Shown in pieces: positions 18,622-64,000 of a stretch of 64,000 nt of DNA (position 1 is the stretch's first letter; the number at the start of each line of letters is the position of its first letter). The position numbers and the translations under genes were made by a program. Source of the DNA: Mycoplasma zalophi (GTDB lineage: Bacteria > Bacillota_I > Bacilli_A > Mycoplasmatales > Metamycoplasmataceae); the NCBI RefSeq assembly GCF_018914005.1, contig NZ_JAHMHI010000001.1, positions 558,001 to 622,000 on the forward strand, read 5' to 3'. The notes beneath the pieces are model-generated. The model was given only the letters and a program-made list of their open reading frames with translations, was not told the origin of the DNA and did not search any database.

Positions 18622-20670
18622 TTAATTTCCTTGCTTTATTTCATGTTCATATTGAAATTCAACTAATCTAAATAGAGATTCCATTTGTTCTATTTTTTCT
18701 TGTTGTTTTTCAAGAGAATCGTTTTCATGAATTGCATATTCTTGTAATTTATTTGTATATTCTCTTTTCTTGCGTTTGTCTTTTATGTGCGGTAAATATT
18801 TTTGAATATCATTATATACTTTATCTCAAGCTTTTTGTTTTATGCTTGCTAAGTATTGGTTATATTTTTTTTCTCCTAATACAGGATCTTTTAAATATGC
18901 TTCAATGATATCATATTCATAATATGCAAAATATGGAATTTCTAAATCTACTTCAATACCATCTTCAGTGTAAGGTAAATCATTTTCATTTGTTATTATT
19001 TCATCCGGAACACCAACTCAAGCATTATTTGAAGACATATCCAAACTGGTTCCATCAGGTAGTACAACAGGTAGAACAGAATACATTCCACCACCACTTG
19101 TATTTCCTATTATTGTTGCAAAATTTCCTAATTTAGCAATATGAGTAAGTAGGTTTGCAGCACTAAATGTGTTTTTACCCACTAAAATATATCAATTATA
19201 ATCTGTGTATCCATCTCTTGCATCATATGCAGCATCATTATTGATATCAACACGATATTTACTGAAGTTAAGTAATTTATTTAAAATATCATAGTAATAA
19301 ATTTTTTGATCTTTATTTGTCATAAAAGCAACAACTTTTTCCATTGCAGCAATTGAACCACCACCATTTAATGATAAGTCTAAAATAATTTTATTGATTG
19401 ATTGTGTTTTTGAGTGCTCTTGAATTCTTTTCATTGCTTCAAACATTAAAAAGTAACTATCATATTTATAAGGCTGGTCACCGTTTATTTCTTCATTTGT
19501 TCCAACAGTAAAAGAATTTAAATAAATGATTGCAATGTCGTTGTGGAAGGATACGATGTTAGCGTCACCATTATTTAAATCATTTTGCATGTTTTTTGCA
19601 CTTCTTATTCTTGATAGAATTCTATATGTTTCTATATAACTTTGTAATCTTGAACTATCAGCAGATGCATAAGGATTTGCACGATAGTTTTTAGGGTGAA
19701 AATATGAGCCTGATTGAATTGAAGTATGCAATTCATTTAAATATTTATAAATAAATTCTTCATATGCATTAGCGTTAACTGTAGCATCAGGTGACATTAA
19801 TTTTTCTTTTAAATTTACTTTTATAAAAAACTCGTCTAAAGAATTTACATTATGTTTTTTTAAAAATGCTTTTTCTAAACCATAAAAATTATCAAATAAA
19901 AATAATAAGAAATTATAGTTATTTAGTCTTTGTTGCTGTGTTTGTTGAGTATTATTGTAAGAATTATTCATAACTTTATTGTATTCAGATGCATCAATAT
20001 CTTTATTAATTATTGAAGTAATTCCTATTAATTTATCACCATTAAAATAAATGTTGTAATAACTTTGACTTAAAAATAATAAGTTAAATACTGATAAAGG
20101 AAGAAAAATATTTTGATTTTTTTCTAACACACTAAAGTTGTATTTTTTTAGATCTAGTTCAGCATACTCATCATTATTTAAACTTTTAACTGAATCTTCT
20201 AAGTATTTTATTTTATTTGAATAATTTTTAGTTGAAGAACTTTTTAAAAACACAAATACATCAGTTGATTCAAATAATATTTTGTGATTTTTATCATCAA
20301 ATATAATTTCCCTTCCAAAGACAGTAAATTTATGTCCTAATTCTGATTGCCCTGAATATCTAAAAACATTTTCTAAAAATAAGCCTTTTAATTTTGTTAT
20401 AAATTCGTTAATATTTACATAAATTTCTTGCGTATTTTTTTCTTTAAAAAGATTTAAATTGTTATTTTCTATATTGAATTCGTTAGAAATATTTTCAAAT
20501 GCATATGATTTTATTAAATCTAAATTATTTGGGCTTGAATTAGTTATTCTAAAAATTGTGGGTATAGAACAAGAAACAGCTGCTGAGATTGCTGTGACTG
20601 AAGAAATTGATAAAGAAGAAATGACTATTAAGTTTTTTATGAATTTTTTATTTGTATTATATTTTCTCAT
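18622..20670 (-). CDS. S41-family peptidase-like lipoprotein
   Basis: 682 residues. The N-terminal signal peptide ends in AAVSC (lipid cysteine 34). After about 340 residues of unrecognised sequence comes an S41 (C-terminal processing/tricorn type) core. It has IAIIYLNSFTVGTNEEI, then INKIILDLSLNGGGSIAAMEK (family motif IDLRxNxGG), then ILVGKNTFSAANLLTHIAKLG with the nucleophilic serine (Ser503) and IIGNTSGGG. Such enzymes cut exposed C-terminal segments of proteins. It is the last gene of the minus-strand operon; its start overlaps the end of the 869-residue LRR lipoprotein by 34 bases. Surface-anchored protease is the likely role; the general base is not identified. Confidence 0.75.
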
Positions 20671-23246
20671 TCATTTCCCTTAGCTTTTTCATAGTTTGTT
20701 TTTTCAAGTAAATAATCACTTCTTGTTTCACCATCAAGTTTTTCATCTTTTTGAACATTTTCAAATGATAAATCATATCCAAATGTACTAATTAATTTTA
20801 TGTAGTTTTGAATCATGTTTTCAGTCATTTTAAATGTATTTCTACTTGCATAGTTATTTTTATATGGGAATCCAGAAATTAAATTATTTTTTTCTTCTAT
20901 TGGCATATTATCATTAATTTCTAAGATTTCTTTTACAATTTTCTGATTTTCTTCAGATAAAGAATTATAGTCTAAAAAGTGATTTTTGTATATATCTTGT
21001 AAATATTGTATGTAGTATTCAGATTGTCGAACAATTAGACGATATTTTGCCATTTTATCTTCTATTTCTTTATTCTTATCTTCTAAATTATCATATTCAT
21101 TTTTTGAATTATTAAAATTATTTTCAGTTTCAATGAATTTTGCTTTTACATTTTGATCTTCAATATTTTCATCATTATTTAGTTTTTCTTGGGTTATAAC
21201 ATATCCAACAATATTTAATAATTCTTTTTGTTTAGCAACATTTTCATTTAGTGTTTTTATTGTTGCTTTTAAGTTATATGCGTATCTATTTATTATTCAT
21301 TCAACATCTTCTGCTAATTTTTCTTCGTTAGTATTTGAAACAAAATCTTTTAATTTTGTTTTTTGATCTTCTGTTAATTTAGTTAAATCTTTTGTAGCTG
21401 CACGTGCAATTTTTTGTAAGAAATCTAAATAAGTATAAAATTGTGTTTTTCTCTCTTCAATTTTTTTATTATTTGCTTCTTTTTGATTTTCTAATTCACT
21501 ATCATCACTAATTTCAATATCTGATCCTAAAACTTTCATTAATTTATTTTTATCTTCTTCGCTATGAACATAGATTTTTTGAAGTTTTGGGAAAATATTT
21601 TTTGAAATTAAAATTCCACTTGTAGCACTTTGATTAGTTGTTACTAAGTCAAAGTTTGTATCAGCTGCAAAAGTTAATTCTGTTAATTCTTGTAATGATG
21701 TAATAAAAGTTTTTATTTTTGAGCCTAATGTTAAAGTTGCTACTTTAGTATTTCTAAATCCTGTAAATACCTCTAATGTTTCAGGTAAAGATAATTCTGC
21801 TATTTTAGTATTATTAAATCCTTTTAATTCAACTAATTTGTCATTTAAATTTAATGTTGTTAAATTAGATGCATTATCAAAAGCAAAATTTATTTCTGTT
21901 ACATTAGCGGGTATAGTTACTTGTGTCACTTGAGTATTTTCAAAACCACTTAATGTTTCTAATGTGTTAGGAAAAGTAATGTTTTGTAAATTTGTATTGT
22001 CAAAAGCATGAGCACCTATCGATACTAATTTATCATTAAATTGCACATTTTCAAGGTTTTCAAAATTACTAAATGAATTTGCTTGAATATAAAGAACTTT
22101 TGAAGGTATTTGTACTTGGTGAGTTTCTTGATTGTATAAATTATTTGCAATTTCAGGGGTTATAGAAATTGCTGTTGCACTTTCTATAATTTCATTTACT
22201 TTACGTTTTAAGTTTCGCTCTTTTTCTTTATATTGATTACTTGTATCTTCTCTTGCTTCTTTGAAAGATTTTTTAATTTTTTCTTGAATTTCTAAGAAAG
22301 CAGGATCATTTCCAAATTGTTGTTCAAGATTACTTAAAATCTTAAATTCTTTTAACAAGTAAGTTTCAAACAATTCTTGATCAGTTAATGATTCTAATCT
22401 TTTAGCTTTGTGTTCTGTTTCTTTAAGTTCAGAAATCATATTTTTTATTTTTCTATAAAATTGGCTATCTATTTTGTTAATGTTTTCAGCTTCCTGAATT
22501 TTTTCAGTCATTAATTCTTTTGCATCATCTTTTTCAAAAGTTTCTTTTAATTCTTTAGCTTCATTAAGTGTAGAATTGAATTTATCTTCAAGAATTTGTT
22601 GTTTTTGAGCAACTGATAAATTGAAATAATCATCAGCTTCTTTAATTTTTAGGTTTAATTGATTAACGGCTGCTTTAATTGTTTCAGTTGTAGCTTCTGA
22701 ATCATGAAAACTTGCTTCAGCATCTGATATAGCCTGCGCAATTAAATTAAATGCAACATCATCAACGTCATTTGAGTAAGGGCCTTTTTTTCTTTGTGCT
22801 GCAAATATTGTTTGTTCTAAAATATTTAAGTTAATTTGCTTTTCTAATTTAGGTTTTATTGTTTGTCATTGAGCGCTTTCTTCACCTAATTTAGCTTTAA
22901 TTTTTTCAAATTTTTGTTGGTCATTATTAGTTTTTGATTCAATGTCAGCTTTTTTAATTGCATCATCTAATAATTGCATTATTTCTTTTTGCTTTGCGGT
23001 ATCATCACGAAAAGTTTTTGCTTGTTCAATAGCGCTTTCTATTATTTGTAAAGATAAAAAGTCAAGTACATTTGTATAAAGTCCTTTTAATTCTTCTAAT
23101 TGATTAATTTTTTCATTTAAAGCGTTATTTTCTTGATCATTATTTTCTGGATCTTGTTTTTCACAAGAAGCAGCAATTGCAGGGATAGCAGAAATTGGTA
23201 ATAATCCTAGTGATGTAATTGTTAATATTTTTTTAGATTTTTTCAT
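20637..23246 (-). CDS. Leucine-rich-repeat (BspA-like) lipoprotein 2
   Basis: 869 residues. MKKSKK and a hydrophobic stretch end in AIAASC (lipid cysteine 28). Long charged helices (about 35-380) are followed by a BspA/LRR_5-type leucine-rich-repeat region (about 385-590) with units such as FENLENVQFNDKLVSIGAHAF and LETLSGFENT. Then another helical, lysine/glutamate-rich part follows to the C-terminus. TGA-Trp codons occur at 22866, 21297 and 20667; I checked the two connecting stretches codon by codon and found no TAA/TAG. It begins two bases after the upstream LRR gene, with AAGGA inside that gene's end, so it is in the same operon. The ligand is unknown; LRRs usually bind proteins. Confidence 0.85.
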
Positions 23247-23248
23247 AT

Positions 23249-25549
23249 TTATTCCTTTGTTTTATCTTCGATATAAATTGTTGGATTATCTTGTTTCATC
23301 ATAGTTAATCATTTTTCATTATTTATTAAGTGTTTGTTATAAACAACAACTTTTTTAAGTAATGCTCAATGGTCTTTGCTAATTTCAGCATATCTTACAT
23401 TTTTAGGTAATACTAATGTTTCAATTTGTGTTTCAGTAAAACCAGCAAAATATTCAAGGCCTTCAGGTAAAACTAGTTCTTCTATTGGAGTTACATTAAA
23501 TCCCCCTATTTTAGTAACTGTTGATGGTATTTTAATTGATGAAATATTAGTAAAACCAAATCCATCTAATTTTATTAGTCCTTCAGGAAGATTAATTTCA
23601 GTTATTAATTTATTAAAATTAAATGCATCAGATGTAATTTCTTTTAGTGTTGATGGTAAATTTATAGAAGAAATTTGTGATTTTTCCCCAGAAAACCCAC
23701 CTAATATTTCTAAATGCTCTGGCAATTTAATTTCTTTTAAAGCAGAATTAGCAAATGAATTTGGTTCAATAACCACTAAAGTTTCAGGTAGTATAACATT
23801 TTCAAGCCGAGGAGTATTTGCAAACCCACCTAGTTTTGTCAATCCAGAATTTAATCATAAATATTTAACAGATGTAGCATCAAATGCATTTTCAGTTATT
23901 TCTTTTAAGTTATCTGGAGTTTTAACCTTTGTTATTTTTGTATTTGCAAACCCACCTAATATTTCAAGCGAATCTGGTAAATTTATCTCTTTAATATCAG
24001 TTTCATCAAATGAATGTCGATAAATAACTTTTAAGTTTTTAGGTAAATTAATTTCACTTATTTTTGTATTTGCAAACCCACCTAATTTTTCTAAATTCTC
24101 AGGTAAAGATACTTTTGAAATATTAGTTGCATCAAAAGTATTTGCAAAAATTTCAGTAACCGTAGATGGTATGTTTATGTTTCAAATATTTCAGTTTGCA
24201 AACCCACCTAATGATTTTAATTTAGAAGGTAAATTTATATTAACTGGTTGAATTTGAATATCAGTATTTAAATCAAAAGTATTTGGTGCGATATATGTTA
24301 TTGAATCTGGTAAAGTAACTTCTGTAAGATCTAATTTTGCAAACCCACCTATTTTTTTAATTCCATCTGGAAAAGAAATGGAAATAATTCTTGTTGCATC
24401 AAATGAGTTAGGTGCAATTTCTTGCAAATTAGCTGGTAAATTTAAACTAGATATTAAAGTTGTTTGAAACCCACCTAATTTTTCTAAAGTTGAAGGCAGT
24501 GAAATACTTCGTAAATTTTTAGAAAATGCAAAAGCATCTTTTGAAATTTCAATTATTCCTTCAGGAAAAGAAACAGATTCAAATTGTGAATTTTTAAACC
24601 CACCTATTTTTTTAAGACTTGTAGGAAGGTTTAAAATTTTAAATTTAGGTTCTTCAAAAGCATCATCTGAAATTTCTTGTAAATTATTATTAAAAGTGAT
24701 ACTTGATATATTTGTGTGTGAAAACCCACCCAATACTCTTAAATTTTTATTAAGTGATAATTCTTGAATTGGTGTTAAATCTAATGTATTTTTGTGAATT
24801 ATTTCCAAATTATCAGGAAGTTTTATATTTGATATTCCTGTATTCGCAAACCCACCTAATTCAATTAAACCGTTTGGTAAAATAAGTTCAGCTACTTTTG
24901 TGTTATCAAACGAGTTAGGTAAAATTTTTTTTAGGTTATTAGGTAAAATCAATTTATTTATTTTAGTATTTGCAAACCCACCCAATACTTTTAAATTTTC
25001 AGGTAAAGATAAATTATTTATAGAACTATTATTAAATGCCCTTTGTCCTATGTACAATAAAGAATTAGGTAAATGAATCGTTTCTAAATTAAAATAATTT
25101 TCAAAAGCCCCATCTGAAATTTTAGTTATTCCTTCAGGTATAGTAATTTCTTTTAAATCTTTTGAAAATGTTTTTATTACTTTGTTTTTTGTTAGGATAT
25201 TTGCATTGTTTTCTTCGGGGTCTTCAATATTTTGAATATCTTTTTCACTATAAAAAGCTAATTTATCTAAATTACTTTTAATTTTAGAAATTAAATTATT
25301 TTTTAAATTTTTATATTCATTTTCAGTGAGTGAATTAGATTTTAATTTAGTTTCTAGATTGATTATCATATTTAATGTTTCATCATCAGTTACTTGTTTT
25401 TTTCATTCATTTATTTCTTCATTTATTTGATCTTTATTTATATTTTGTATTTGATTGTCTTTTGCACAAGATACCAAAGTAAATGTAGTTATCAAAAATG
25501 GTGTTGATAACATAGATAGATAAAAGAATTTATTAGTTTTTTTGTTCAT
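23249..25549 (-). CDS. Leucine-rich-repeat (BspA-like) lipoprotein 1
   Basis: 766 residues. The signal peptide ends in LVSC (lipid cysteine 28). Residues about 120-730 are almost entirely BspA-type LRRs arranged as a double unit of about 42 residues: L-x-x-L-G-G-F-A-N-T-x-I-x-x-L-x-L-P-x-x-L-x-x-I-x-x-N-S-F-D. At DNA level the GGFANT part recurs as TTTGCAAACCCACCTAAT (reverse strand) roughly every 126-140 bases. TGA-Trp codons occur at 25403-25405, 24191-24193, 23366-23368 and near the C-terminus. AAGGA lies eight bases before ATG 25549. It is the first gene after a TPP riboswitch/terminator and heads the operon with LRR lipoprotein 2 and the protease-like lipoprotein. Confidence 0.87.
23490..24990 (-). 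repeat. Tandem ~126-140 bp repeats encoding LGGFANT leucine-rich units
   Basis: Copies of the sequence encoding L-G-G-F(-A-N-T) occur near 23498, 23693, 23823, 23947, 24075, 24199, 24340, 24468, 24597, 24722, 24848 and 24974. The unit is 42 residues in its commonest form. Copies have diverged at the DNA level outside the conserved core, so they are not freshly duplicated, but they offer substrate for unequal recombination. Confidence 0.8.
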
Positions 25550-25570
25550 AAATGTTCCTTTTAGCAAGAG

Positions 25571-25607
25571 CAATTAAAAAGAGAGGTGCCTAAGGCACTT
25601 CTCTTCT
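25571..25607 (-). terminator. Riboswitch-associated terminator before the LRR operon
   Basis: On the minus strand GAGAAGTGCC (25603-25594) pairs with GGCACCTCTC (25590-25581) across a 3-base loop, with one mismatch, and is followed by five T's (25580-25576). It lies between the TPP aptamer and the start codon, the classical position for a metabolite-controlled intrinsic terminator. Confidence 0.85.
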
Positions 25608-25789: not shown

Positions 25790-27967
25790 TTAAATCGTAC
25801 AGCTTTCACACTCTAAAAGACTTGCTGTTTGTTCATTTCAATCTATGTTTTCTGAACCCTCTAAAACTTCTTGTCTTATACGAACATAGTAAATACTTGA
25901 ACAACCTTGTTTAAATGCTCTAATGTAAGCTTTGTTTAAATCTCTGGTTGTTGCTTTATCATTCATAAATAAAGTTAGTGAAATTGCTTGATCAATATGT
26001 TTTTGAGCTTTTGCGGCTATATCAATAATTGGATCAGGTCCTAATTCATAAGCGCCTTGTTCATAATATTTGTAATTATTTTCATCTAATTTATAAGCAG
26101 AAGAATATACTCTACCTAATTTTCCTTCTTTTCTTATTTCAATCGGAGCAACTACTGGTTGTAAAGAAGGGGTACATGAACTCAAATATGAAATTGAACC
26201 TGTTGGTGCAATAGCCATTAAATGAGAATTAGCAAGACCGGTTTTTTGTATTTCATTACTTAATTCAATTCAATCTTGTTGTGTGGGTATTTTTATATTT
26301 CTTGATTCAAATATGTTTTTAATTTTTTCAGTTTTAAACATGTATTCTTGAGGATCGTTTTCAGTATATTTTTTAAAATATGATCCATTAGCATATTTTG
26401 ATGTAGTAAAGTTGTCATAAGTTTTGTTGTATTCTTTTGCTAGTTTATTTGATGCTTTGAATGCGTAATAAGCAACTGTGTAGAAAAATAAATCAGTAAA
26501 TTCTAATGCTTCTGGTGAATTATAATATATACCATTGGAAGCTAAAAATCCATGTAAGTTCATAGCACCTAAACCTAAAGCATGATTTTTGGAATTACCA
26601 TTTTTTATTGAAGGAGCAGAATCTAAATTTGAAAATCTTGAAACATGATCTAGTGCTTTAATTGAATAATAAATTGATTCTTCAAATCTTGCTCCTGCTT
26701 CCATCATTTTGTCTATATTTAAAGAACCTAAGTTACATGAAATATCTTGACCTAATTTATTAATACTTAAATCTGCATTATATGTTGTTTCTGAAGAAGA
26801 TTGAACTATCTCAGAACATAAATTAGACATAACTATTCTACCTTGGTTTGGATTTCTTCTATTTACGGTGTCATCAAAAAGAATGTAAGGATAACCACTT
26901 TCAAAGTGTAATTCAGCAACTGTTTGAAAAAATTTACGTGCTGAAATAAATTTTTTGGTAATTTTATCATTATTTAACATATTGTAATATTCTTGTGTTA
27001 CAGAAATATCACTCATAGGTTTTCCATATACTTTTTCAACATCATAAGGACTAAATAAAGCCATATCTTTATTTTCTTTTGCTAATTCAAAAGTTATATC
27101 TGGAACAACAACACCTAAAGAAAGTGATTTAATTCTGATTTTTTCATCAGCATTTTCTCTTTTTGTATCTAAAAATTGCATGATATCTGGATGGTGTGCA
27201 TGTAGATAAACTGCTCCAGCACCTTGTCTTTGTCCTAATTGATTTGCATAACTAAAACTATCTTCAAGTATTTTCATTACAGGAACTACCCCTGTTGCTT
27301 GACCTTGAATATTTTTAATAGGAGCACCAAATTCACGTAGATTTGTTAATAATAAACTAACCCCACCACCTCTTTTTGATAATTGTAAACTTGTAGATAC
27401 TGCTCTTGCAATAGATTCCATGTTGTCTTCAATTCTAATTAAATAACAACTTACATATTCTCCTCTTTGCTTTTTACCTGCATTTAAAAAAGTTGGAGTA
27501 GCAGGTTGTAATCTACCACTTAAAATTTCTTTTAATATATTTTTGGTATCTTCAAAATTTCCATTTCCTAAAAATAATGCATTCATTAATGCTCTTTCAC
27601 TGTAGGTTTCAAGGAATTCTTTTCCATCAAAACTTTTTAAACAATATGAATTATAAAACTTTACAGCTCCCATAAATGAACGAAAATGGTGGTTATATTC
27701 TTTGATAACTTCATATAGTTCTTCTAATTGTTTTTTATTTACATTATTAACAACTTCTTCTTCATAATAATGATTTTTAACTAAATAGTCCATTCTAGCA
27801 TGAATATTATCAAATTTTTTCATTGCTGGTCTAATTGTCTTTTGCATATAAATTTCAATGGCTTTTTGGTCATTTTCATAAACATCTTTACCTTTTGAAA
27901 ATTTTGTTAGTGCATTAAAAGCAAGATACAAATCTGCATCTTTAAATTCTTTTGTGTTTGACGACAT
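25790..27967 (-). CDS. nrdE: Class Ib-type ribonucleotide reductase large subunit NrdE
   Basis: 725 residues, normal NrdE length; it reduces ribonucleoside diphosphates to deoxy forms. Visible signatures are YVSCYLIRI (active-site Cys of the redox pair), LSKRGGGVS, NLCSEIVQ, DISCNLGSLN (second Cys), GLGAMNLHGFL, MAIAPTGSISYLSSCTPSLQP, the radical-path tyrosines near YYVRIR, and the C-terminal redoxin-facing pair CESC in LLECESCTI. TGA-Trp codons occur at 26270-26272 and 25838-25840. It is the last gene of nrdF-nrdI-nrdE, the order usual in mycoplasmas, and works with the unusual NrdF upstream. Confidence 0.96.
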
Positions 27968-27978
27968 ATTTTCTCTTT

Positions 27979-28428
27979 CTATTTATTTCAAATTTCTTTT
28001 AATATTTTTCTTACTTTTTCTACCTCTGCTATTGATCCTCTTAGTTCAATTGTGGTTAAAAGAGGAACATTTAATTTGTTACTTAAAACATAACCCGCTA
28101 AACCATAAGTATCACCAAAATTAGTATTTCCAGTACCAATTACAGCAACACAATTTTTTCTATTGCTTTCTATGTTTAAAAATTTAATTATTTGTTTAGG
28201 AACAGCTCCTTTAGTTTCTCCTAATCCACCTGAAAATGTTGGTGAAACTAAAACATATTGTTGATTTACTAAACAAGTTTCAGGATCGTCTTGTGGAATT
28301 CTTGTGTTTGCAACTTCAAGTTTTGAAACAAAATGTTTTGTATTTTCTGTTCTAGATGAGAAATAAACTACGTGAATTTCTCCTGATGCTTTTGGCATTT
28401 CTGCGTGTAAATTATCTTTAATATCCAT
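27979..28428 (-). CDS. nrdI: Flavodoxin-like ribonucleotide reductase accessory protein NrdI
   Basis: 149 residues from ATG 28428. An in-frame TTG at 28443 overlaps nrdF and is a less likely start. NrdI is an FMN flavodoxin that supplies the oxidant needed to generate the NrdF radical. The phosphate loop VYFSSRTENTKHF and the later flavin-binding segments SPTFSGGLGETKG and GTGNTNFGDTYGLAG are clear. One TGA-Trp lies near the C-terminus, and the stop is TAG 27979-27981. It starts two bases after the nrdF stop, so it is translated with nrdF and nrdE. Confidence 0.94.
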
Positions 28429-28430
28429 AA

Positions 28431-29444
28431 TTAAAACTCTCAATCTTCATCTTCTGTTTCCTCAGTAACTCCCATAATATATGAACTACCGTTACCTGAA
28501 AAGAAGTCATGATTTTCATCTGCTCTTGCTGAAAGTTGCGCAAAAACTTCTGGTGATATTTTTGTTTCTTCAGCTGTAAATGGTGAATCATATCCACAAT
28601 TTTGTAAAAATTTTCCTGCATTATATAAACTAAAACGAATTGCATCTTCCGCTAGTCCAAATCCGTCATAAAGTTCAGTTAAAAATTCTTTTTCTAAATC
28701 AATTAATTTATATAATATATCAAATACAAACTCCTTATATTCTTGTTGTTTTTCTGGAGAAAGTTTTTCAACTTTTTTACGGTATTTGTAACCTGAATAA
28801 TAGTTATGCAATACTTTATCTCTTAAAATTAATCTAATAATATCACTTGTGTTTGGTAACTTACCTCTTGCTGATAAATAAAATGGTAAGTAGAATCCTC
28901 CATATAGTAAAAACCCTGGCATAAGTGCTGCTGCTATTTTTGATTTTAGTGGATCATCTGAAATATAAAAAGGAATTAAAAATTTTGCTCTTGCTTGCAG
29001 TTTTTCATTATTTATAACTCATTCATGAGCTTCTTCAATTTCTTCTGATGTATTTAAAGTACTAAAAATTGTACCATAGCTTCTAGCATGCACTCCAACC
29101 ATAAATGCAAAGTTTGCATAAATAAATTGTTCATGATCTGTTAGTGCATTAGGAATTTGTGCAGTATCTCCTAACGTCGCTTGAATAGTGTCTAATAAAG
29201 TAAGACCTGTAAATGTTCTTGTAAGAAGTTGTTGTCAACTTTTATCCATTTCATTTCATGATTTTAAATCATTAGATACAGGAATTTTTTCAGGTAATCA
29301 AAAGTTTTGCGTAACTCTAGTTCATACTTCTAAATCTTTATCATCGTTTATAACATTTCAATTAATAGCACGTAATGAACCTTGTAAATTTTCCTTTACG
29401 TAACCTAATGGATTGTTAGAATTAAAATAATATTTGTTTTTCAT
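28431..29444 (-). CDS. nrdF: Metal-free (class Ie, VPK-type) ribonucleotide reductase radical subunit
   Basis: 337 residues, full-length NrdF with blocks GLTLLDTIQ, VHARSYGTIFSTL, LPFYLSARGKL, IIRLILRDK and the C-terminal docking segment DENHDFFSGNGSSY...EDED-WEF. Compared with metal-dependent NrdF, three carboxylate ligands are replaced. The Glu of MEAVH is Val116 (MVGVH), the Glu of FLESF is Pro176 (LMPGF), and the Glu of RDEAVH is Lys210 (RDKVLH). Asp85, His119 and His213 remain, and the radical tyrosine is Tyr123 (HARSY). This Val-Pro-Lys set defines the class Ie enzymes known from mycoplasmas and some other bacteria, which use a DOPA radical without metal. AGGT precedes the start. First gene of the operon. 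Confidence 0.95.
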
Positions 29445-34995: not shown

Positions 34996-36426
34996 CTAAT
35001 TATCTTCATTTTCCATGAAGTTAATTCTTAAAATATTAAAATATAAAAACAAGTGATTTTTCTGATCGTTTTTTCAAGGTTCAGGAGTATTAACTATAAA
35101 TGATCAATAATCAGAAGATTCAGTAATTACTTCTTTTTTATTTGTTTTATCTAAGTTTTTATATCATTCTTTTGTTTCTAATTCTTTTTGCAAGATTTCT
35201 TTAATTTTATCTTTTTTGTGATCTAAATCACCATCTCACGCACCAAATAATTCTTTTTGTTTTTGAGCAGATAAATAAATTATTAAATCTACGTGTGCAG
35301 GTATAGTGATGTTATTATCTTCACTTTTTTCTTCATACTTTTTTCAATAAAATTTAATATCTGGATTATCTTGATATTTTTGTTCTATTGAGTAATTTTT
35401 TATATTTCAATCTCTATTTACATAATATGTATAAGGATAATCATTTATAAATTCATATTTACTAGTTCCGGGTATTATTGTTATTATGGCTTTATAGTGG
35501 TTATCATGTTTATATAATTCATCTCTTTTTATTGGTTGTGTACCTTTTTTTCTATAATCATATACAAAGTTTATTGTTTCAGTTGTTAAATCTTTCTTTA
35601 AAAAAGTTATATCCATAAGGTTACCATCATAAATTTGGAAATAAAATAGTTTATTATTATCAATATGGAATCCAGGCCCTCCAGGTATTGCTCCAGAATA
35701 CATAAGGGCATAAAATGTAAGAGTTTCTCACGCTAAATCTTCATCGTCAGCCAAATTACCGTATTTTCTTTCTTCTGATAATCTATTTTCGTAAAAAAGA
35801 TCATCAAATTCAAATAAAAATTCTTTGGCAGTAAGGTTATTTGAGTTAGTATCTCTTTTTAAAGTTGCTCTTCACGAAAAGTTATTAAGGTCAATAGGTT
35901 TTAGTGGGTCTGTTTCATTGTTGGTTTCATAATTTGTTATTAAAACCTCGTCAAAATTTTCACTTTTAAACATTTTGTTGTCTACGTCTTCTTTTGATGA
36001 ATATTTTTCTTGATATTCAGTTATTTTTTTATGCAATTGTTCTATTTCAATATCTTTATCTTTTAATATCGAATTTAATTCTAAAATTTGATCTCTTATT
36101 TCATTGATTTTTGCGTTTAAAGAGGTAATTTTGTTAGAAATTTCTTGATTTTTATTTTGATCTGTGTTTTTGTTTTTTAATTGACTTTGTAATTTAGAAA
36201 TTTCAGCAGATTTATCAAGTAATGTATTTTCTAAGGACTTTAATTGAGATTTATAAAAATTTTCATTAATTTTTTGTTGCTTATTAAAACTATTGTTTTT
36301 GTTTTTTGTAACAACATAAGTTGGAATAGTAGCGATTGAAACAACAGATAAAAAAGCTAAAAATATTATTAAAATTCATAATTTTGATTTTTTCTTTTGT
36401 TTATCTTTATCATTATTATTTGTCAT
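34996..36426 (-). CDS. Coiled-coil membrane protein, paralog A
   Basis: 476 residues of unknown function. A lysine-rich cytoplasmic start (1-14) is followed by one membrane segment (about 15-38) and a long coiled coil (about 55-150). Then comes a block shared with three neighbours, VDNKMFKSENFDEVLITNYET...DPLKP. Family C-terminal motif IPAHVDLIIYLSAQKQKELF is followed by a tail ending in RINFMENEDN. I see no cysteine. The topology is N-in with the bulk outside, as for a surface protein. It follows paralog B by 11 bases and shares its transcript. Confidence 0.82.
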
Positions 36427-36437
36427 TATTTCTCCTA

Positions 36438-37898
36438 TTAATTTTTATTAGTATCTTCATTTCCTAAAAAATTAATTCTTAATACATTAATAAATAAAGG
36501 AATTTTATTATTATAATCATAACTTTGAATATCTGAATATTCTAAATTGTAGTTATTCATATCATTGATAAATCAAGAAGTTACTTTTAATTTATGTTCT
36601 TCTAATGATTTGATATATCATTCTTTTTGCTCTATTTCCTCTTGTAAAATTTGGTTTATTTTATCTCTTTTATCACTTAGTTTTGCATCTCAAGATCCAA
36701 ATAATTCTTTTTGTTTTTTAGCGGATAAATAAATTATTAAATCAATGTGAGCTGGTATATTATTTTCATCATCTCTATCTTTATATTCTTTTCAGTAGAA
36801 TTTAATGTCTGGATTGTCTTGATATTTTTTATCAACCTCGTAATTTTTTAAATTAACATCTTTGTTTTTATAATATGTAAATTCCATTTCTTCTCCTGAA
36901 TTAGTTGGAATTAACACACGCGAGCGTTCAATTCTATTAGGTGCTCATTTAAGTTTTATTATAATTCTATAGTGGTTACCAGTTTTATGAATATCGTCTA
37001 AATTTACCAATTTATTTCATGCATCATCTTCATTTTTTGCAGTCATTGTTTGTGTATTTAAATTTTTATCAAGGTAAATTACGTCGATTAAATCTTCATC
37101 ATCTAAACCAAAGTAAAATATTCTTTTATTTGTTATTTCTAGTCTAGAATCTTCTATAAATGTTACCCCTGCATTTATAAGTGCTTGAAAAATTAGTTTA
37201 TTTCATTTAATATTTCCATATTTCACTTCATTGCTAACTCCTAGTTTTCTATTTTTCATTACTTCTTCTACATATTCTTTGTTGAACTCAAATAAAAACT
37301 CTTTTTCTGTAAGCTTATTTGAAGTAATGCCCTTTTTTAATGTAACTTTTGAAGAATAATTTTTTACATCTACAGGGTCTAGCGGGTCAATGCTTTGTGA
37401 TTTTTCATATGTCGTTAGTAAAACTATATCAAAATTCTCATTTTTAAAATCTTCATTATCTATGTCTTCTTTTTTGATATATTTTTCTTCATAATCTTTT
37501 ATGTTTTTAGTAAGCTCTGAAATTTCTTGATTTTTATTTTCTATTATAGAATTTAGTTCTAAAATTCGCTGTTTTAAAGTTTCATATTCTGATTCCAAAG
37601 TTTTAAGTTCATTGGTAAGTTTTTGATTTTCAGAATCATCCTCACTATTATTTTTTAATTTATTTTTTAATTCTAAAATTTTGGCTGCTTTATCTAATAA
37701 ATCATCTTCTAAAGATTTTAATTGTGAATCGTAGTAATTTTTATTAATCTTTTGTTTTATTACTGAATTTTTATTGCTATTTTTTGTTAAAAAGTAAGTA
37801 GAAATAGCCGAAATTGAAGTAATTGAAAATAATAATAAAAACAATCAAAGAATTCACAAAAGCTGTTTTTTGTTTTTCTTTTTATTTTCTTTTTCCAT
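36438..37898 (-). CDS. Coiled-coil membrane protein, paralog B
   Basis: 486 residues with the same layout as its neighbours: short Lys-rich start, membrane segment (about 13-37, with two TGA-Trp codons), coiled coil, then DNEDFKNENFDIVLLTTYEKSQSIDPLDP, and the C-terminal IPAHIDLIIYLSAKKQKELF followed by VLRINFLGNED. Function is unknown. It is more similar to C and D in the DFKNxNFDIVL block than paralog A is. A start at ATG 37898 with GGAGAAA upstream is preferred over internal methionines because it includes the basic anchor. Confidence 0.82.
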
Positions 37899-37940
37899 TT
37901 TTCTCCTATTAAAATTTTATATTAATTTAAAAGTTTTTAG

Positions 37941-38250
37941 AAATGAAAATCAAGTTTGCGTAAAAAACACAAGATTAAACATCAATATTTTCATGCTAAT
38001 AATGGTGTAGAATATGCAGATTTTCATGTGAAAAATTACTTAGTAAAAAATAAAATAATTCAATCAATGACTACTAAAGACAATTCACTAGAAAAATGTG
38101 ATCCAAATATTTATTATATTTAAACAGAATTACAAAAAATTCATATTATAATAAACTATTTCAAATTCTTGAAAAAAGAATGATTTAAAACACAAAAAAT
38201 CATTTAACTGAATTGCTTTATAATTATTTATTTTAAAAATAAGCATCAAT
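37941..38250 (+). pseudogene. Remnant of an IS3-family transposase
   Basis: A frame from 37941 to TAA 38121-38123 encodes KHQYFHANNGVEYADFHVKN, then YLVKNKIIQSMTTKDNSLE. This matches the integrase-core segment of IS3-family transposases (FHSDxGxQY...GIxQSMSxKGxxxDN). After that stop, NYFKFLKKEWFKTQK (about 38154-38195) and an IYFKNKH-like piece (to about 38250) resemble the next transposase blocks, but stops separate them. No start, upstream catalytic region or inverted terminal repeats were seen. It is a dead fragment lying between paralogs B and C. Confidence 0.72.
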
Positions 38251-38409
38251 AATATGAAAAAAATATGAAGACATTTGAAATATACTATGCTATATCTTTA
38301 CACATAAATAATATATAATCTAATAAATTAAAGTAAAAAAACTCATATCAATAAAAATCAATATGAGTTTTGCGTCAAATTTTGTTCATCTAATTTAGGT
38401 GATTTTTTA
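38251..38409. other. A/T-rich spacer with a hairpin
   Basis: No gene. AAAACTCATAT pairs with ATATGAGTTTT (about 38337-38371) and is flanked by A's and T's. It is the likely terminator of paralog C on the minus strand. Confidence 0.6.
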
Positions 38410-39855
38410 TTAATTATCAGAAAGGTCTTGGCTATTTAAAAAATTTAATCTTAATATATTTAGATATAGTGGAGTTTTATTAGATTCACCGTATGAAAAA
38501 TTATTATATTCTAATGTAAAATGTTCATTTTCTACATTTCATGAAGTTATTTCTTTTTCATATGTTTTATCTAAATCTAAATATCACTGTTTTGTTTTTA
38601 GTTCTTCATTAAGAATATTTTTTAATATAGCTGCTTTTTCGTTAATATCACTTTCTAAATTTTGAAATAATTCTTTTTGCTTTTTAGCAGATAAATAAAT
38701 TATTAAATCAACGTGAGCGGGTATATTATTTTCTTCATCTTTTGTTTTGTATTCTTTTCAATAGAATTTAATATCTTCATTATTTTGTGATTTTTCATCT
38801 ATTGAGTAGTTTGCTATATTTCAATCATTATTTATATAATATTTTATTTTCTTATTTAATTCTTCATCGTTTTTATAATTATATCTTGCATCTCTATTAA
38901 TTCCTGATTTTATTTTTATTATTACTCTATAATGTTTTCCTGATTTATAAATTTCATCAATATTCAAGATATGATTTTTTTGGTAATTGTAATTAAATTC
39001 ATATGATATTTTTTTAGATTTTAATTCTTTGTTTAAAAAATTAATTTCTATTAAATCCTTAGGTTCAATAGCGAAATAAAATATTTTATTATTATCAATA
39101 TTTCAACCTGGTCCTACAGTAGCTCCCGCATACATAATGGCATCTAAAACAAGTTCCTCTCATTTTACCAATACTTCGTTATTCATATTTTCTCATTGTG
39201 TATGTCTTTTTTCTTCGTCAAATAATTTTTGATAAAAATCATAATCAAATTCAAATAAAAATTCTTTCTCTGTTAAATTATTATGATTTGTATTTCTTTT
39301 TAAAGTTATCTTTGTTGAATAATCATCTTTTTCAACTGGTTTTAAAGGGTCAGTACTATATGATTTATCATATGTTGTATTTAATACTATATCAAAGTTA
39401 TCATTTTTAAAATCTTCATGATCTACGTCTTCACTCGGAAGATATCTGTCTTCAAATTCTTTTAATTTTTTAAGAAGTTCTGAAATTTCAATATCCTTGC
39501 TTTTTAATATTGAATTCATAGATGATATTCTTTCTCTTAAAGTATTTGATTCAGATTCTAAGGTTTTGACTCTTTCTTTTAGAACATCATTATTATTGTC
39601 ATTGAAATTTTCCATTTGGTTATTTAATTTATAAATTTCAGATTCTTTTTCAATTAGCTGATTTTCTAAAGATTGTAATTTTAATAAATAGTAATTTTTA
39701 TCTTTTTCTTTTTGTTTATTTAAATTAATACCTTGATTTCTAGTTATATAATATACAGAAATTGATGAAACAGCAATACCGAATATAATAGACAAAAAGA
39801 TAATTATTATTGAAATAAGTGTTTTTTTCTTTTGTTTTTGTTTTTCTTTTTCCAT
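38410..39855 (-). CDS. Coiled-coil membrane protein, paralog C
   Basis: 481 residues. The start is ATG 39855 with GGGGG seven bases upstream; an in-frame GTG at 39870 has no ribosome site. The membrane segment is about 12-37, coiled coil about 45-140, then VDHEDFKNDNFDIVLNTTYDKSYSTDPLKP and the C-terminal IPAHVDLIIYLSAKKQKELF. Codons for its last third (38531-38848) are almost identical to those of paralog D (40064-40381), while the middle of the two proteins differs strongly. Function is unknown; it is probably surface exposed. It lies 72 bases after D and could be co-transcribed with it. Confidence 0.82.
38531..38848 (-). repeat. Near-identical 318-bp block shared with paralog D (40064-40381)
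   Basis: By eye the block differs from its counterpart at only a few positions (for example GAGCGGGTATATT against GGGCAGGCATATT), while the flanking coding sequence is much more diverged. The offset of 1533 bases keeps the frame. Recent duplication or gene conversion explains it. Confidence 0.8.
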
Positions 39856-39927
39856 TTGACCCCCAATCACTGAAAAATATAATATTATTTCATTATTTTT
39901 TAATTAATTAAATTATTAAGATAATAA

Positions 39928-41394
39928 CTAGTCAAATATATCGTAATTATCATGATAATCTTTTTTTTCTAAAAAATTAAGTCTTAACATATTAAAGTAT
40001 AAAGGCATTTTATCTGAATTATTAGTAAATCTGTTTTGGTATTCTAGTAAAAAATTATTATTGTCTACATTTCATGAAGTTATTTCTTTTTCATATGTTT
40101 TATCTAAATCTAAATATCACTGTTTTGTTTTTAGTTCTTCATTAAGAATATTTTTTAATATAGCTGCTTTTTCGTTAATATCACTTTCTAAATTTTGAAA
40201 TAATTCTTTTTGCTTTTTAGCGGATAAATAAATTATTAAATCAACGTGGGCAGGCATATTATCTTCTTCATCTCTTGTTTTGTATTCTTTTCAATAGAAT
40301 TTAATATCTTCATTATTTTGCGATTTTTCATCTATTGAGTAGTTTGCTATATTTCAATCATTATTTATATAATATTTTAAATACTTATTTATATCTTTAT
40401 CATGGTAATATTTATGTGATGGTTGTCTGTTTGTTCCTGTTTTTATTTTTATTACAACTCTATAATGTTTGCCAGATTTATAGATTTTATCAATATTTAA
40501 TACGTTTTTTGAATCATAAAAATAGTGGAGATTAAAAGACACTGTTTGTAAATCTAAATTTTTATTTAGGTAATGAATATCTATTAAATCCCCCTCATCT
40601 ATTAAAAAATAAAATAACTTAGTGTTAACACTATATGCTCCAGCTTGATTTGCCCCTAAATATGAAAGAAAATATACAAATAAATCTTCCCAATATAAAG
40701 ATATATCGTCTTGGTTATTTTGATTAGCCATATGTTTTGCATATTCCAGCATTTTTTTATAGAAATTATCATCGAATTCAAATAAAATTTCTTTCTCTGT
40801 AAAATTATTTTTATTATAATTTCTTTTTAAACTTATTTTTGTTGAATAATCATCTTTTGTAAATGGCTTTAAAGGGTCGGTATCATACGATTTCTCATAA
40901 GTTGTACTTAATACTATATCAAAATTATCATTTTTAAAATCTTCATGATCTACGTCTTCACTCGGAAGATACTTATCCTTAAATTCTTTTAATTTTTCAA
41001 GAAGTTCTGAAATTTCCATATCTTTGCTTTTTAATATTGAGTTTATAGATAATATTCTTTCTCTTAAAATATTCGATTCAGATTCTAAGGTTTTAATTTC
41101 TTTTTCCAAATCACTTTTTGCATTATTATTTTCATTATTAATTTTTTTCAAATTGTCATTTAACTTAGAAAGTTGAGATTGTTTTTTGATAAGTTGATTT
41201 TCTAAAGACGTTAATTGTGCTAAATAATAATTTTTGTTATTTTCATTTCGTTTGCTTAAATTTGCATTTTTATTTTTGATTGAATAATAAGTTGGAATTG
41301 ATGCAATGGTGGCACCAATTAAAATAGATAGAAAAATAACAATTATTCAAATAAATGTTTTTTTGTGTTTCTTTTCTTGATTTACTTCTTTCAT
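39928..41394 (-). CDS. Coiled-coil membrane protein, paralog D
   Basis: 488 residues with the shared layout. Lys-rich start, membrane segment (about 16-37, starting with a TGA-Trp), coiled coil, VDHEDFKNDNFDIVLSTTYEKSYDTDPLKP, a variable middle, and the conserved IPAHVDLIIYLSAKKQKELF block. The C-terminal third is nearly identical in DNA to paralog C. A minus-strand TATAAT lies near 41462-41467 and an 18-A tract (18 T's in transcript sense) lies about 40 bases further upstream. GGAGGAAAA precedes the start. Function is unknown. Confidence 0.82.
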
Positions 41395-41503
41395 TTTTCC
41401 TCCATTCATTGTCAAAAATATAAATTATTAATGTGATATTTGAATTAAACGCGAAACGTCATTATAACACATTGTTAAGATTGAAAAAATAAAAAAGACA
41501 AAC

Positions 41504-46796: not shown

Positions 46797-49700
46797 ATGA
46801 ACTTAAATCAAAAAAAATTAAAGAAAATAAGTGGAATACTGGTTGTATCTACTGCTACTTTAGCGGTTACTACAACAACATTTATTGTTGAAGAAGCTAG
46901 ATTAAAAAATCTAATTCAGACTCAACAAAAATTATGAAACAATTTAAATGAATTTAAAAATACTGAATTAAAAGATGATGAATTTTTATCAAAATTAGTA
47001 CAAGATATTTTAGATGATAACCCTGTGTTAAATATTTTTTACGACACTTTTACAAAAGTTAGGATAAAAATTGATAACCTTAAATTTTCCTTACAAAAAT
47101 TTGCGACTATAATTTCAAACAACAAAGAAAACAGCAGTAAAAAATATAATTCATTAAAAAGCCAAATAAAAAACTATATTGATGATGAATTGAGATTTAC
47201 AGAGTATGAAAATTTAAAAAACAAGCTTCAAGAAGCAGTTGAAAACTCAGATAATAATTTAAATTCAAATTCTAGTCAAAAAGAAATAGACAATCAAACA
47301 AAAATTCTTCAAGATATTTTTGACCAAATAAAAAAAGACAAAGCAATTAAAGATAATGATATTAAACAAATGGCTTTTTCTGATTATGAAACAGCTTTAA
47401 GAAAATTAAATGAATTTATTAATGACCCTTTATCATTACACGATTTTTATAGCGAACTATATTCAAATGAAAAAACTAATCGTGATGAAATTGCAAAAAA
47501 TATTAGTTTTGAAAATTCTAATGTTGGTGAAATTTTAGAAGCAAAACAAAAATTAATTCAAGAATTAGAAGATGCAACTAAAAAAGCTCATGAGGTTTCT
47601 AAACAAACACTTCAAAAAGTGTATGATGAAGCTAAAGCATACTCAAATGAAACATTAATTACTGCAGATGATGCTAAAACAAAAGAAGATTTATTAAACT
47701 TTTCAAAAGAAAAATATGACTTAGGAATTGAAAGTGATGATTTTGAAGTTGTTTATGACAGTATAAGCAAAATTACTAGTTACATAGAATCTGCAAAAGT
47801 TAAAAAATATTTAAACGATGTATTAAGAAATCATTCAATTAATACTTTAAAAGAAGCACAAGAATTTGCAAATACTTTTTTAAATGATTTTACTGATAAT
47901 AAATATCCAGATATTAAACAATATGTATCTGATATTTTAGCAACCGAAAGTCAAGGCACTGAATCAAAAACATTTGACAAAATATACGAATCAGCAGAAA
48001 AAATAATCGAAGCTTTAAAAACCAAAAAAGGTGAAGCAATTACTGCTTATAATACACAAAAAGCGAAATTAAATGAAATCAAAGATGAATTAACAGAATC
48101 TAAATATGAGTCAATTAAACAAGAAATAATTAATTTAATAACTGAAAAAGATGCAATAATAAATAATCCAAACTCAACAACAAGAGATATTTTAGATGCA
48201 ACTGAAGTATTAAAAAACTTTGAAAATCAAATCGAAAACAAAAAGCAAGCTAAAGACAATATAAATTCAACATTTACCGATATTGAAAATTACATAAAAA
48301 CTCATACACACCCAGAAGATGCTAAATCAATAAGCGAGTTACAAGAAGCTTTAAATAACATTAAAGAAAAAACTAAAAACTCTTCAGATACTGCTGAAAT
48401 TCAACAATGAAATAATGAATTATCAACTATTTTTGAAAAAACCAAACAAATGGTTAATGAAACAGCAACAAATCGTGAACAAGCAAGCACAGAATATGAA
48501 ACAATTGCAAATAAAGCAAATAAATTAATAGCAGAATTAGAAGAAAATCCACAAAAATATCCTAATTTAGCTGAAGAATTAAAAATTAAAAAATCAGAAA
48601 CTGATGGAGTCGTTGCTAAAAAAGATACTGAATCAACAAGTACACAAATAACACAAGCAAAAAATGATTTAGAATCAAAATTAAATGAAATAGAAGCCAA
48701 AAAAGACAGAATTGATTTAGAGGAATCAAAAGCTAAATATGAAAATAAATATTCTGAAGCATCTAATTATGAAACTTCATTAGATGAAGAAAAATATTCA
48801 TCAATTAAAACAGAATTAAAAAACAAAATCGCAGAAATTAATGAGTTATATGAAACAAGTATTAATAGCGAAGAAAAAAATGATAAACAAAAAAATGTTG
48901 ACGTTAAAGAAGCAATTAAAAATATTCAAATTGCTCTTGATAAAGCTAAACACGACAAAGAAACCTTAGATAAAAACCGTAAATTCCAAAGTTATTTAGC
49001 ACTAAAACATTTAATTGAAAATTATATTGATTCTGATTTAAAAGATTCTAAATTTAAGTTTATAAAAGATAAGTTAAATGAAGCAATTGACACAAATGAA
49101 CAATTATTAGAAAATGATCCAGATGCTGCTGAACCAACATTAAAAGATTCAGTAACTGATGAACAAATTCAAGCATCAATTGATAATTTAACAACTATAT
49201 TTGAAGCTAATACAGAACTAAAAACATCAAAAGATAACTTTGATCTTAAAGTAGAAGATGCTGAAACATTATTATCAAAAATTAAAGCACCTGTTTTAAA
49301 TAAAGATGATGAAGAACTTTATAATACTTTAAAAAATAAAGTAACAGAATTACAAAAATTTTTTAAAGATGATAATAATAAAACAAAAGACAATTTTGAT
49401 CAAAAAGCAAAAGAATTATCAGGTGCAATAACTCAAGCAAATGACAAATACATTGAAAATAAAGCCAAAAGAAAACAGGCAAGAACTAATTTACAAGCAA
49501 AAATTGATTCAATTAAACAATATGTCCAAGACAACTTACAAGAAAATAAAGATGGAACTTTTGTTACAAAACCCGAACATATAGCTACTGAAAGAAAAAT
49601 TTTAGAAGAATTAGAAAAAGCAAAAACAATTCATGATAGTGCTTCTTCAACTGAGAAAAATTTAATTGATGCTTTAAATTCTTTAAATGATCAAGAAAAA

Positions 49701-52700
49701 ATTCTTAAAGCATCAGAAGCATTTGATAAACAAGCAAAAGAAGCTTCAGATTTTTACAATACCTTAGATGATAAATTAGATAAAAATGTAAAAAATACAT
49801 TAGGTTTAGCAATAACAAATGAAACTGATAATAAAATCAGTGTAGCAAATAACTTTACAAAAAATACAGCAACTATTGATGAAACAATTGATCAAATAAA
49901 TCAAGCAAAAGAAAATCTAAATCAAGCATTAGAAGCTGCAAAAAATCAACAACTAGAAATTTTCCAAAATGCTTATGATAATTTATCTAAACAAGCAGAT
50001 CAATTATTGACTGAATTAGATGAAACTAATGGAGAAGATGCAAATAAACATTCTAAATACCCTGAAATTGCAAGAGCATTAAAAGACATAAAAGATCCAG
50101 AAGATGCAAAAGCACTTTCAACATCTACACCTAAACCAACAATCGAGATTTTAAAAGAATCACTTCCAAAATTACAAAAAGCATATGATGATGCTGTTTT
50201 AGCTAAATCAAAATCAGATTTTGATAAAGTTTATGGCGATATTTTAGATAAATTTAAAGATACAGAAGGTTCTACAAAATATCAAAATCTAAAAAATGCA
50301 GTTATAGAACATTTAAAATTACAAAAAAATATCAGAGATAATGATGATTCAACTGCACAACAAATCAATGAAGCTACTGAAGTACTTAAATCACAAATTT
50401 CGCAATTAGATTTAATAAAAGAAAGTTTTGATGAGTATAAAGATGCTTTTAAAGAGGTTTCAGATTACAATGATAGTTTAACTTCTGAAAATAATGAATC
50501 TAAGGACATTTTAACTAATGCTTTAAACACCTATAAAGAAAGTAATATAGGTGCTGATAATGCTTTAAATCCTGAAAAATATAGTGAATTTAAAACAGGA
50601 TTAAAAAAAGCTCTTAAAGACGCAAAAGATATTGAAAGTTCAAAAACAAACTATAAAAATGAACTACAAAACACAACTTCTGATGACGAATTTGAAAATT
50701 ATCCTGAAGCATTAAAAAAATATAAAAAAGCAATCGAAGATATTACAAAAGAAGATGGTTCACTTGCACAAGATTTAAAAACAGCTAAAACTCCAGAAGA
50801 AATTAAACAAGCATATGACAATGCAACAAATGCTCTTAAAAAAGCAAAAGAAGATATAGTTTTAAATAAAGCAAAAGAAGATTATGATAAAAAAGTAAAA
50901 GAATTACAAACATTAAAAGATTCTTTAAATCCAAGTAATCAAGCTGAAAAAGCAATTATAGATGAATTACAAAACATTGAACATTCTTCAACATCATCAA
51001 TAAAAGCAAAAGAAGATTCAAAAACTATTATAGTAAATGACTATACAAAAACAATAACTACATTAGACGATGCAATATTAAAAGCTAAGTTAGATAAATC
51101 TAAAATAGATTACGAAAATACAAAACAACAAGCACAAGCAACTTCTAATGAACTTGACGGAAATTATCCTAAAACAAAACAATATTATGATGAAGAACTG
51201 TTAAAAATTGAAAAAAAATTAACAACTAGTCTTACCGAAGCAGGAGAAGATAAACAAAAACAAAAAGAAGCATATGATACAGCTAAAAAAGCAATTGAAA
51301 CATTAAATGAAACTTTAGAAGCTAAAAAAATAGAAGAAACAAATGATAATAAAGCTAAATATGAAAAATCATTAGAAGAGTTTAATAAAACCAAACAAGA
51401 AGCTGAAAATATTAAAGATGAAGCTTTAAAACAAAAAATAAAATCTGAATTAAATGATGAAAAAAATAAAGCTGATGCAATATTAAATTCTGATCCAAAA
51501 ACCGCTGCTAAATATGAAGAAGCTAAAAAAATCTTAGACGCTGCAAATAATTTGGCTAAAACTCAAGAATTTGATAAATTAAAAACTGACGTTGAAACAT
51601 ATATAGGCTCAGATTTAAATGATGCTAAATATGATCAAATAAAAGCTGATTTAGAAAATACAAAAAATACAGAAAATGAAATTGTTCATACAGCAGAAAA
51701 TCTAGACAAACCAAGTTCTGAAACAATTAAAGAAGCAATTGACACTCTTCAAGAAGCATTTGATAATGCCAAAAAACAAAAAGCACAAAAAGACTTTGAT
51801 GATGCATATGATGCACTAAAAAATAAAGGTGCAAATGATAGTATTAAAAAAGCAATTGAAAAAGAAGTTTCAGATCAAAAAGATGTTAGAGATAATGTTG
51901 ATTCAACAACTGAAGAAATTAACAACGCTACAACTAAATTAAATGATGCAGAAATAAGCAATAAAATTACTGAAACAAACAATAAAAAATCAGAATATGA
52001 TGAAGAAGCTAAAAAAAGTCTTTCTGGTGAAAAATTAGAAGAAAAATTTGGAAATAATGAAAGAGCAAAACAAAATTATTTAAATGAAATTGAAAAAGCA
52101 CAAGAAAAATTAAATAGTATTTTAGATTCAGATGATGCTGATTTAGACAGTATAAAAGAAGCTTATAATCAAGCAAAAGAAAGATTGCAACAATTAAATT
52201 CTGATGCTAACATAAATCAACAAATTGCTGCAGATAAATACAGAAAAGCACTTGAATCAGCAAAAAATAAACATTCTTCATTAAATGACTTAGAAGAAAG
52301 TAAAATCAAAAAAGATCTTGGGGATGTTATAACTTCAAACACAATTGAAGAATCTGCAATTGATTCAACACCAACTAGTGACTTGGAAGCAAAAACAAAA
52401 GCATTAAATGATGCAGTCACAAAAGCTAATCAAGAACAAGAACGCATAAGAGTAGCAAAAGCAGCTTACGATGCTAAAGTCAGTGAATTAGAGTCAGCAA
52501 AAACAACATATCCAAATTTTGCTAATGAATTACAAACCGCTATAAATAATTCAAATTCAAATATATCAACAAATCAAAAAGCAAAAACAATACAAGCAAG
52601 TGATTATACTGGTGAAACAGATTATTTAAGAGTAATTTTTGATAAAGTTAAAGCTAAAGATAGTTTTGATAAAGAATATAAAGACATTACTGACGCTGTG

Positions 52701-55700: not shown

Positions 55701-55874
55701 GTAATTAAATTATATTTCGAAGCAATAGATTATTACTTTGAAGATGATTTAGAACATCGTGTATATAAACAATTAATCATGTGAGATGCAAGAGGTGATA
55801 AAGCAAGTAATACAAAAGTAAATTTAACGCTAGATTATTATGAAGATTCAGACAATGCAGGTTTAACAAAATAA
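46797..55874 (+). CDS. Giant repetitive coiled-coil surface protein 1 (Lmp-like)
   Basis: 3025 residues in one table-4 frame; TGA-Trp codons occur in the N-terminal 540 residues and after 53307. A single hydrophobic anchor or signal segment (about 11-30, no lipid cysteine) begins the protein. Then follow thousands of Lys/Glu/Asn/Ala-rich helical residues built from diverged units. Typical unit phrases are AxxKLNEIKDELTxSKYESIKQEI and DxLSQLxxAxDNA, similar in style to FIVAR-type helical repeats. The last ~600 residues, from the first late TGA, are non-repetitive and rich in aromatic residues (YFIVDHMNGENKHLHFKDVYDN). No cysteine was noticed. It resembles M. hominis Lmp proteins in size and composition; the name is not certain. 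It probably forms a long surface fibre. Confidence 0.85.
50108..50316 (+). repeat. ~209-bp block nearly identical in both giant genes (pair at 59434-59642)
   Basis: Both copies encode KALSTS-PKPTIEILKESLPK followed by LQKAYDDAVLAKSKSDFDKVY and so on, with only a handful of base differences. The flanking sequence is far more diverged. The spacing preserves reading frame. Other shared blocks are 47925-48000 with 57235-57312 and 52290-52440 with 62965-63115. Confidence 0.85.

Positions 55875-56125: not shown

Positions 56126-64000
<7,875 letters not shown>

Follow-up and report, generated by a model that had tools for sequence, protein, structure and literature searches.

Class Ie ribonucleotide reductases (RNRs) have reportedly been published for mycoplasmas since 2018. 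A VPK member of the class is told by an R2 subunit (NrdF) in which Val, Pro and Lys replace three metal-site glutamates and an Asp, two His and the radical Tyr are kept, by its grouping with characterised R2e proteins apart from class Ib, and by the nrdFIE order with NrdI; the QSK variant has Gln, Ser and Lys, and class Ib has four carboxylates and two His with a di-metal site. PMC11846895 describes the R2e VPK proteins of three organisms as active, reports the nrdFIE order in virtually all VPK operons, and counts in GTDB 128 VPK genomes (93 of them Mycoplasmatales) and 65 species whose sole RNR is VPK class Ie. Horizontal transfer of class Ie is also already proposed in that paper.

The locus analysed here lies in Mycoplasma zalophi, within a stretch of 64,000 nucleotides (the window, G000:C1:558001-622000) of a genome of 836 kb in 7 contigs, estimated to be 99.81% complete. 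The features that matter for the argument are the following:

28431..29444, (-) strand: nrdF, class Ie (VPK) R2 subunit, 337 aa in code 4, an ATG-to-TAA frame
28806..29192, (-) strand: nrdF codons 85 (Asp85) to 213 (His213), including Val116, His119, Tyr123, Pro176 and Lys210
27979..28428, (-) strand: nrdI, flavoprotein that would provide the oxidant (TIGR00333, PF07972 and PDB matches)
25790..27967, (-) strand: nrdE, R1 catalytic subunit, 725 aa (TIGR04170, 1pem alignment and motifs)

The nrdF frame is open only when its 7 TGA codons are read as Trp, as in the mycoplasma code. Read from this frame, the residues at the active site are D85, V116, H119, Y123, P176, K210 and H213, so that the initial annotation, which had three metal-site glutamates replaced by Val116, Pro176 and Lys210 with Asp85, His119, His213 and the radical Tyr123 kept, was right in both its numbers and its motifs. 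With Val, Pro and Lys in place of three of the four metal-binding glutamates (in the count of that annotation), NrdF is not expected to assemble a di-metal site. Positions 116, 176 and 210 were read in an alignment of distinct sequences with an alignment span of at least ~280 residues: V/P/K was found in 42 of the 56 NrdF and E/E/E in 14, without intermediates, and glutamates occupied the three columns only in the metal-type rows, where all 14 distinct sequences have them. At position 180 there is L in 42/42 VPK and F in 14/14 EEE proteins; an F-to-L change as a fourth VPK signature was considered and dropped, since F and L at this site are already noted in PMC7615503, which gives F in 91% and L in 9% of R2 proteins.

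When NrdF was compared with the PDB by phmmer, the R2e of Mesoplasma florum (the 6gp2 group) came out on top with an E value of 2.2e-187 over residues 1-337 and no gap, followed by 9r5l and then by the 7mmr/7mmp and 6ebo sequences, whereas the best class Ib chain, 1kgn, ranked far below these class Ie-type R2 proteins (E 1.8e-119). We take 6gp2 to be the M. florum protein, and the 7mmp and 6ebo entries to be class Ie. The numbering of M. florum equals that of the window protein plus 3, which makes Tyr123 the equivalent of Tyr126 in the M. florum R2 (MfR2), Lys210 of K213 and Asp85 of D88. All the second-shell residues that PMC7615503 names from the radical-state structure of MfR2 are present in NrdF (W49=W52, D85=D88, Q88=Q91, Y123=Y126, Y160=Y163, L180=L183, F184=F187, K210=K213 and Y322=Y325). 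From the ligand set of class Ib, just Asp85 and the two His remain, and V, P and K stand where a QSK protein would have Gln, Ser and Lys.

The neighbouring genes had been described as intact, and their family matches bear this out. NrdI scores 135.6 bits against TIGR00333 (cut-off 74.65) and also matches PF07972; its closest solved proteins are 6ebq and then the NrdI chains of 7mmp/7mmr, 7mmp being an entry in which NrdI occurs together with an R2 close to the window NrdF. The likelier start of nrdI is the ATG at 28428, 2 bases past the nrdF stop, rather than the TTG at 28443 given in the list of open reading frames. NrdE is full length, scores 958.8 bits against TIGR04170 (cut-off 750), aligns with 1pem over 14-706, and shows cysteines in YVSCYL (from 171), SNLCSE (381) and DISCNLGS (408), the tyrosine pair SIYYVR (691) and a C-terminal CESC; the roles of its individual cysteines are presumably those known from the R1 literature. 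The genes stand in the order nrdF, nrdI, nrdE, which matches that reported for VPK operons. Around the operon, 21 sigma-70-like sites were counted against a shuffle mean of 28.9, that is, no excess.

Ligands, operon order, second shell and closest solved structures all agree with the earlier proposal that the VPK pattern marks a class Ie reductase, and we read the locus from its sequence as a complete class Ie (VPK variant) RNR operon, nrdF-nrdI-nrdE, with a probability of about 0.96. NrdF is thus an ordinary further member of a published class, not a discovery.

Chance does not account for the VPK pattern, because an R2 match was found in 42 of the 135 genomes of the family, 41 of them above the cut-off, and all 41 full-length NrdF are V/P/K; the weak match in genome G039 (17.6 bits, below the cut-off) proved not to be NrdF by tblastn of its stretch. 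The three genes follow each other in the same order and on one strand at 41/41 family loci, although in 30 of the 41 the stretch examined ends within nrdE. A tree of 64 NrdF rows (some of them copies of one genome and none from the PDB), from which seven loci listed as duplicates and alignments spanning <250 query residues were left out, fully supported a VPK group of 50 rows (100/100) against 14 metal-type rows. Within it, the window NrdF belongs to a clade of 12 rows (100/99) with congeners, M. lipofaciens (labelled Metamycoplasmataceae) and M. imitans (labelled Mycoplasmoidaceae), a composition of the NrdF tree that may point to transfer between mycoplasma families.

In the window genome the R2 family gave one match, the R1 barrel family one and the NrdD family none, so class Ie seems to be the only RNR of the organism, a second one being unlikely, if conceivable in an assembly of 7 contigs. 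In the genus, the R1 barrel family occurs in 4/24 genomes and NrdD in none of the 24; most congeners seem to have no RNR at all, and we infer that they live by salvage. The locus fits the distribution picture of PMC11846895.

Synonymous divergence (dS) from genome G047 is about 0.2-0.3 in the genes compared. A simple counting method in our own implementation gave dN/dS values against G047 of 0.005 for nrdF, 0.060 for nrdI and 0.036 for nrdE (0.071-0.184 for three neighbouring genes), and against G037 of 0.031, 0.157 and 0.081, respectively (0.156-0.334 for the three neighbours). Three comparisons were made, of six genes each for G047 and G037 and of five for G041, and in every one nrdF showed the tightest constraint; these values indicate strong purifying selection on a protein that works. 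They speak directly against a decayed or inactive NrdF whose metal site was lost by drift. Such a loss would find some room in the genus, where the RNR large subunit is absent from 20/24 congeners and the lack of an RNR must therefore be tolerated; yet nrdF has the lowest dN/dS of the six genes, V/P/K is common to 42/42 distinct VPK relatives, and the activity of R2e VPK proteins from three organisms (PMC11846895) is hard to square with drift. Low dN/dS together with the constancy of the ligands led us to reject decay, which we regard as most improbable. No better standing can be given to an ordinary di-manganese class Ib enzyme, as automatic annotation has it: the best NCBIfam models are indeed named class 1b, and NrdI and NrdE also belong to class Ib, but three carboxylate ligands are missing, the nearest solved proteins are class Ie (E 2.2e-187 against 1.8e-119 for 1kgn) and the 50 VPK rows form one group separate from the 14 metal-type rows. 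At the sequence level this identity is rejected by ligands, PDB ranking and tree alike.

A last alternative accepts class Ie by descent and has the radical formed otherwise, for instance on an unmodified Tyr or with an oxidant source other than NrdI. It draws on the rapid divergence of NrdI among mycoplasmas, and it is set against a DOPA site of which every checked residue is kept, an nrdI gene that adjoins nrdF in 41/41 family loci, and purifying selection on nrdI itself (0.060 and 0.157); we hold it to be very unlikely. Of the three proteins NrdI has by far changed the fastest: median identity to relatives is 54% for NrdI, 79% for NrdF and 66% for NrdE (53, 56 and 23 loci, respectively, some being duplicates of one genome). 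Because NrdI has kept far less of its sequence than NrdF has, the NrdI step of the mechanism rests on family membership and not on close identity.

Returning to class Ie with the DOPA radical, the absence of metal, the DOPA at Tyr123 and the transfer of the radical are inferred from homologues in print of M. florum, S. pyogenes, A. urinae and Gardnerella. On this analogy, NrdI and O2 would provide an oxidant that is sent along a channel between R2 and NrdI and hydroxylates Tyr123 to DOPA. Water would connect the DOPA radical with Lys210, and Asp85 and Gln88 would lie close to it. By way of Trp49 and/or Tyr322 the radical would then reach the cysteine of NrdE that initiates the reduction of ribonucleoside diphosphates. 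The DNA precursor synthesis of the organism, where it is not covered by salvage, probably needs no iron or manganese. This is hidden by the label 'class 1b', which the initial annotation had rightly expected to be wrong: the best-scoring NCBIfam model for NrdF carries that name, and the VPK nrdF of Lactobacillus plasmids is annotated in the same way. The wider point is a small one, mycoplasma class Ie having been in print since 2018 and counted in 2025.

The surroundings of the operon are partly shared between genomes. In G047 and G037 the same flanks are found: to one side lie genes for two leucine-rich repeat proteins and an S41 peptidase, to the other those for an alpha/beta hydrolase and an ABC transporter of the CypI type (thiamine-binding lipoprotein). 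In G041 a homologue of the hydrolase likewise stands at the nrdF end, some 2 kb distant. G034, where the R2 and R1 families were not found, has the hydrolase, CypI and the transporter, but at the place where nrdF would begin it has a different, lipoprotein-like frame of 791 aa. The two adjacent leucine-rich repeat proteins of the window (20637-25573) are of the BspA type (PF13306), with 869 and 774 aa, and the latter is lipoprotein-like and evolves faster than the nrd genes. Elsewhere in the window, four neighbouring frames of 476-495 aa occupy 34996-41415 on the (-) strand; at least three of them look interrelated, and two align at 45-47% with the copy that G047 has of the first frame. Two giant frames, of 3025 aa (46797-55874) and at least 2625 aa (56126-64000, running off the window), have strongly A-rich coding strands.

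Outside the mycoplasmas, VPK proteins were also seen in two streptococci and in Oceanivirga miroungae (Fusobacteriota), whose nrdFIE operon encodes an NrdF 78% identical to that of the window. Moreover, the operon of L. crispatus is found, at 98.9-100% identity over 90-100% of its 3,580 bases, in 20 records of Lactobacillus plasmids (crispatus, gasseri, paragasseri and one 'sp.'). V/P/K was read in four of the 20 (L067, L068, L090 and L091), and in these four plasmids IS, toxin-antitoxin, recombinase or ParA genes lie near the operon. PMC11846895 counts 24 genomes of Lactobacillales with class Ie VPK; a search of titles and abstract openings returned nothing visibly on the VPK operon of Lactobacillus plasmids, which is no proof of its absence in print. 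Among 632 phage records no match to VPK nrdF exceeded 60% identity, the criterion by which these records were judged, and the single viral contig found as a possible carrier was ruled out as EEE. We consider it an even wager that the VPK operon moves between hosts and can be dispensed with, and is not fixed mycoplasma heritage; it would have crossed mycoplasma families and would now circulate on plasmids carried by lactobacilli of the human vagina and gut. If so, the plasmid operon could give lactobacilli a dNTP synthesis independent of iron and manganese. The patchy presence in the genus (4/24 congeners) together with the plasmid copies may interest those who study the spread of this enzyme.

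Among known systems, class Ib NrdF (for example 1kgn and 1r2f) shares with the window protein the family and the NrdI and NrdE partners, and differs from it in the Glu at 116, 176 and 210 and the Mn2/Fe2 site, these three Glu being absent here. The class Ie QSK R2 of Gardnerella vaginalis is, according to PMC11846895, also metal-free and DOPA-bearing with a Lys at the third site, but it has Gln and Ser for Val and Pro, belongs to Actinomycetota and comes in different gene orders. In a scan of named genomes the nearest protein was the NrdF of Mycoplasma zalophi CSL 4296 (L044), 99.7% identical to that of the window and with the operon and flanking genes shared. The class Ie R2 of Mesoplasma florum (R2e VPK; PDB 6gp2, 6gp3, 8bt3 and 8bt4) is like the window NrdF in V/P/K, in the kept Asp, His, Tyr and His and in the second shell, and the window protein, known from its sequence, differs from it by ordinary sequence divergence only.
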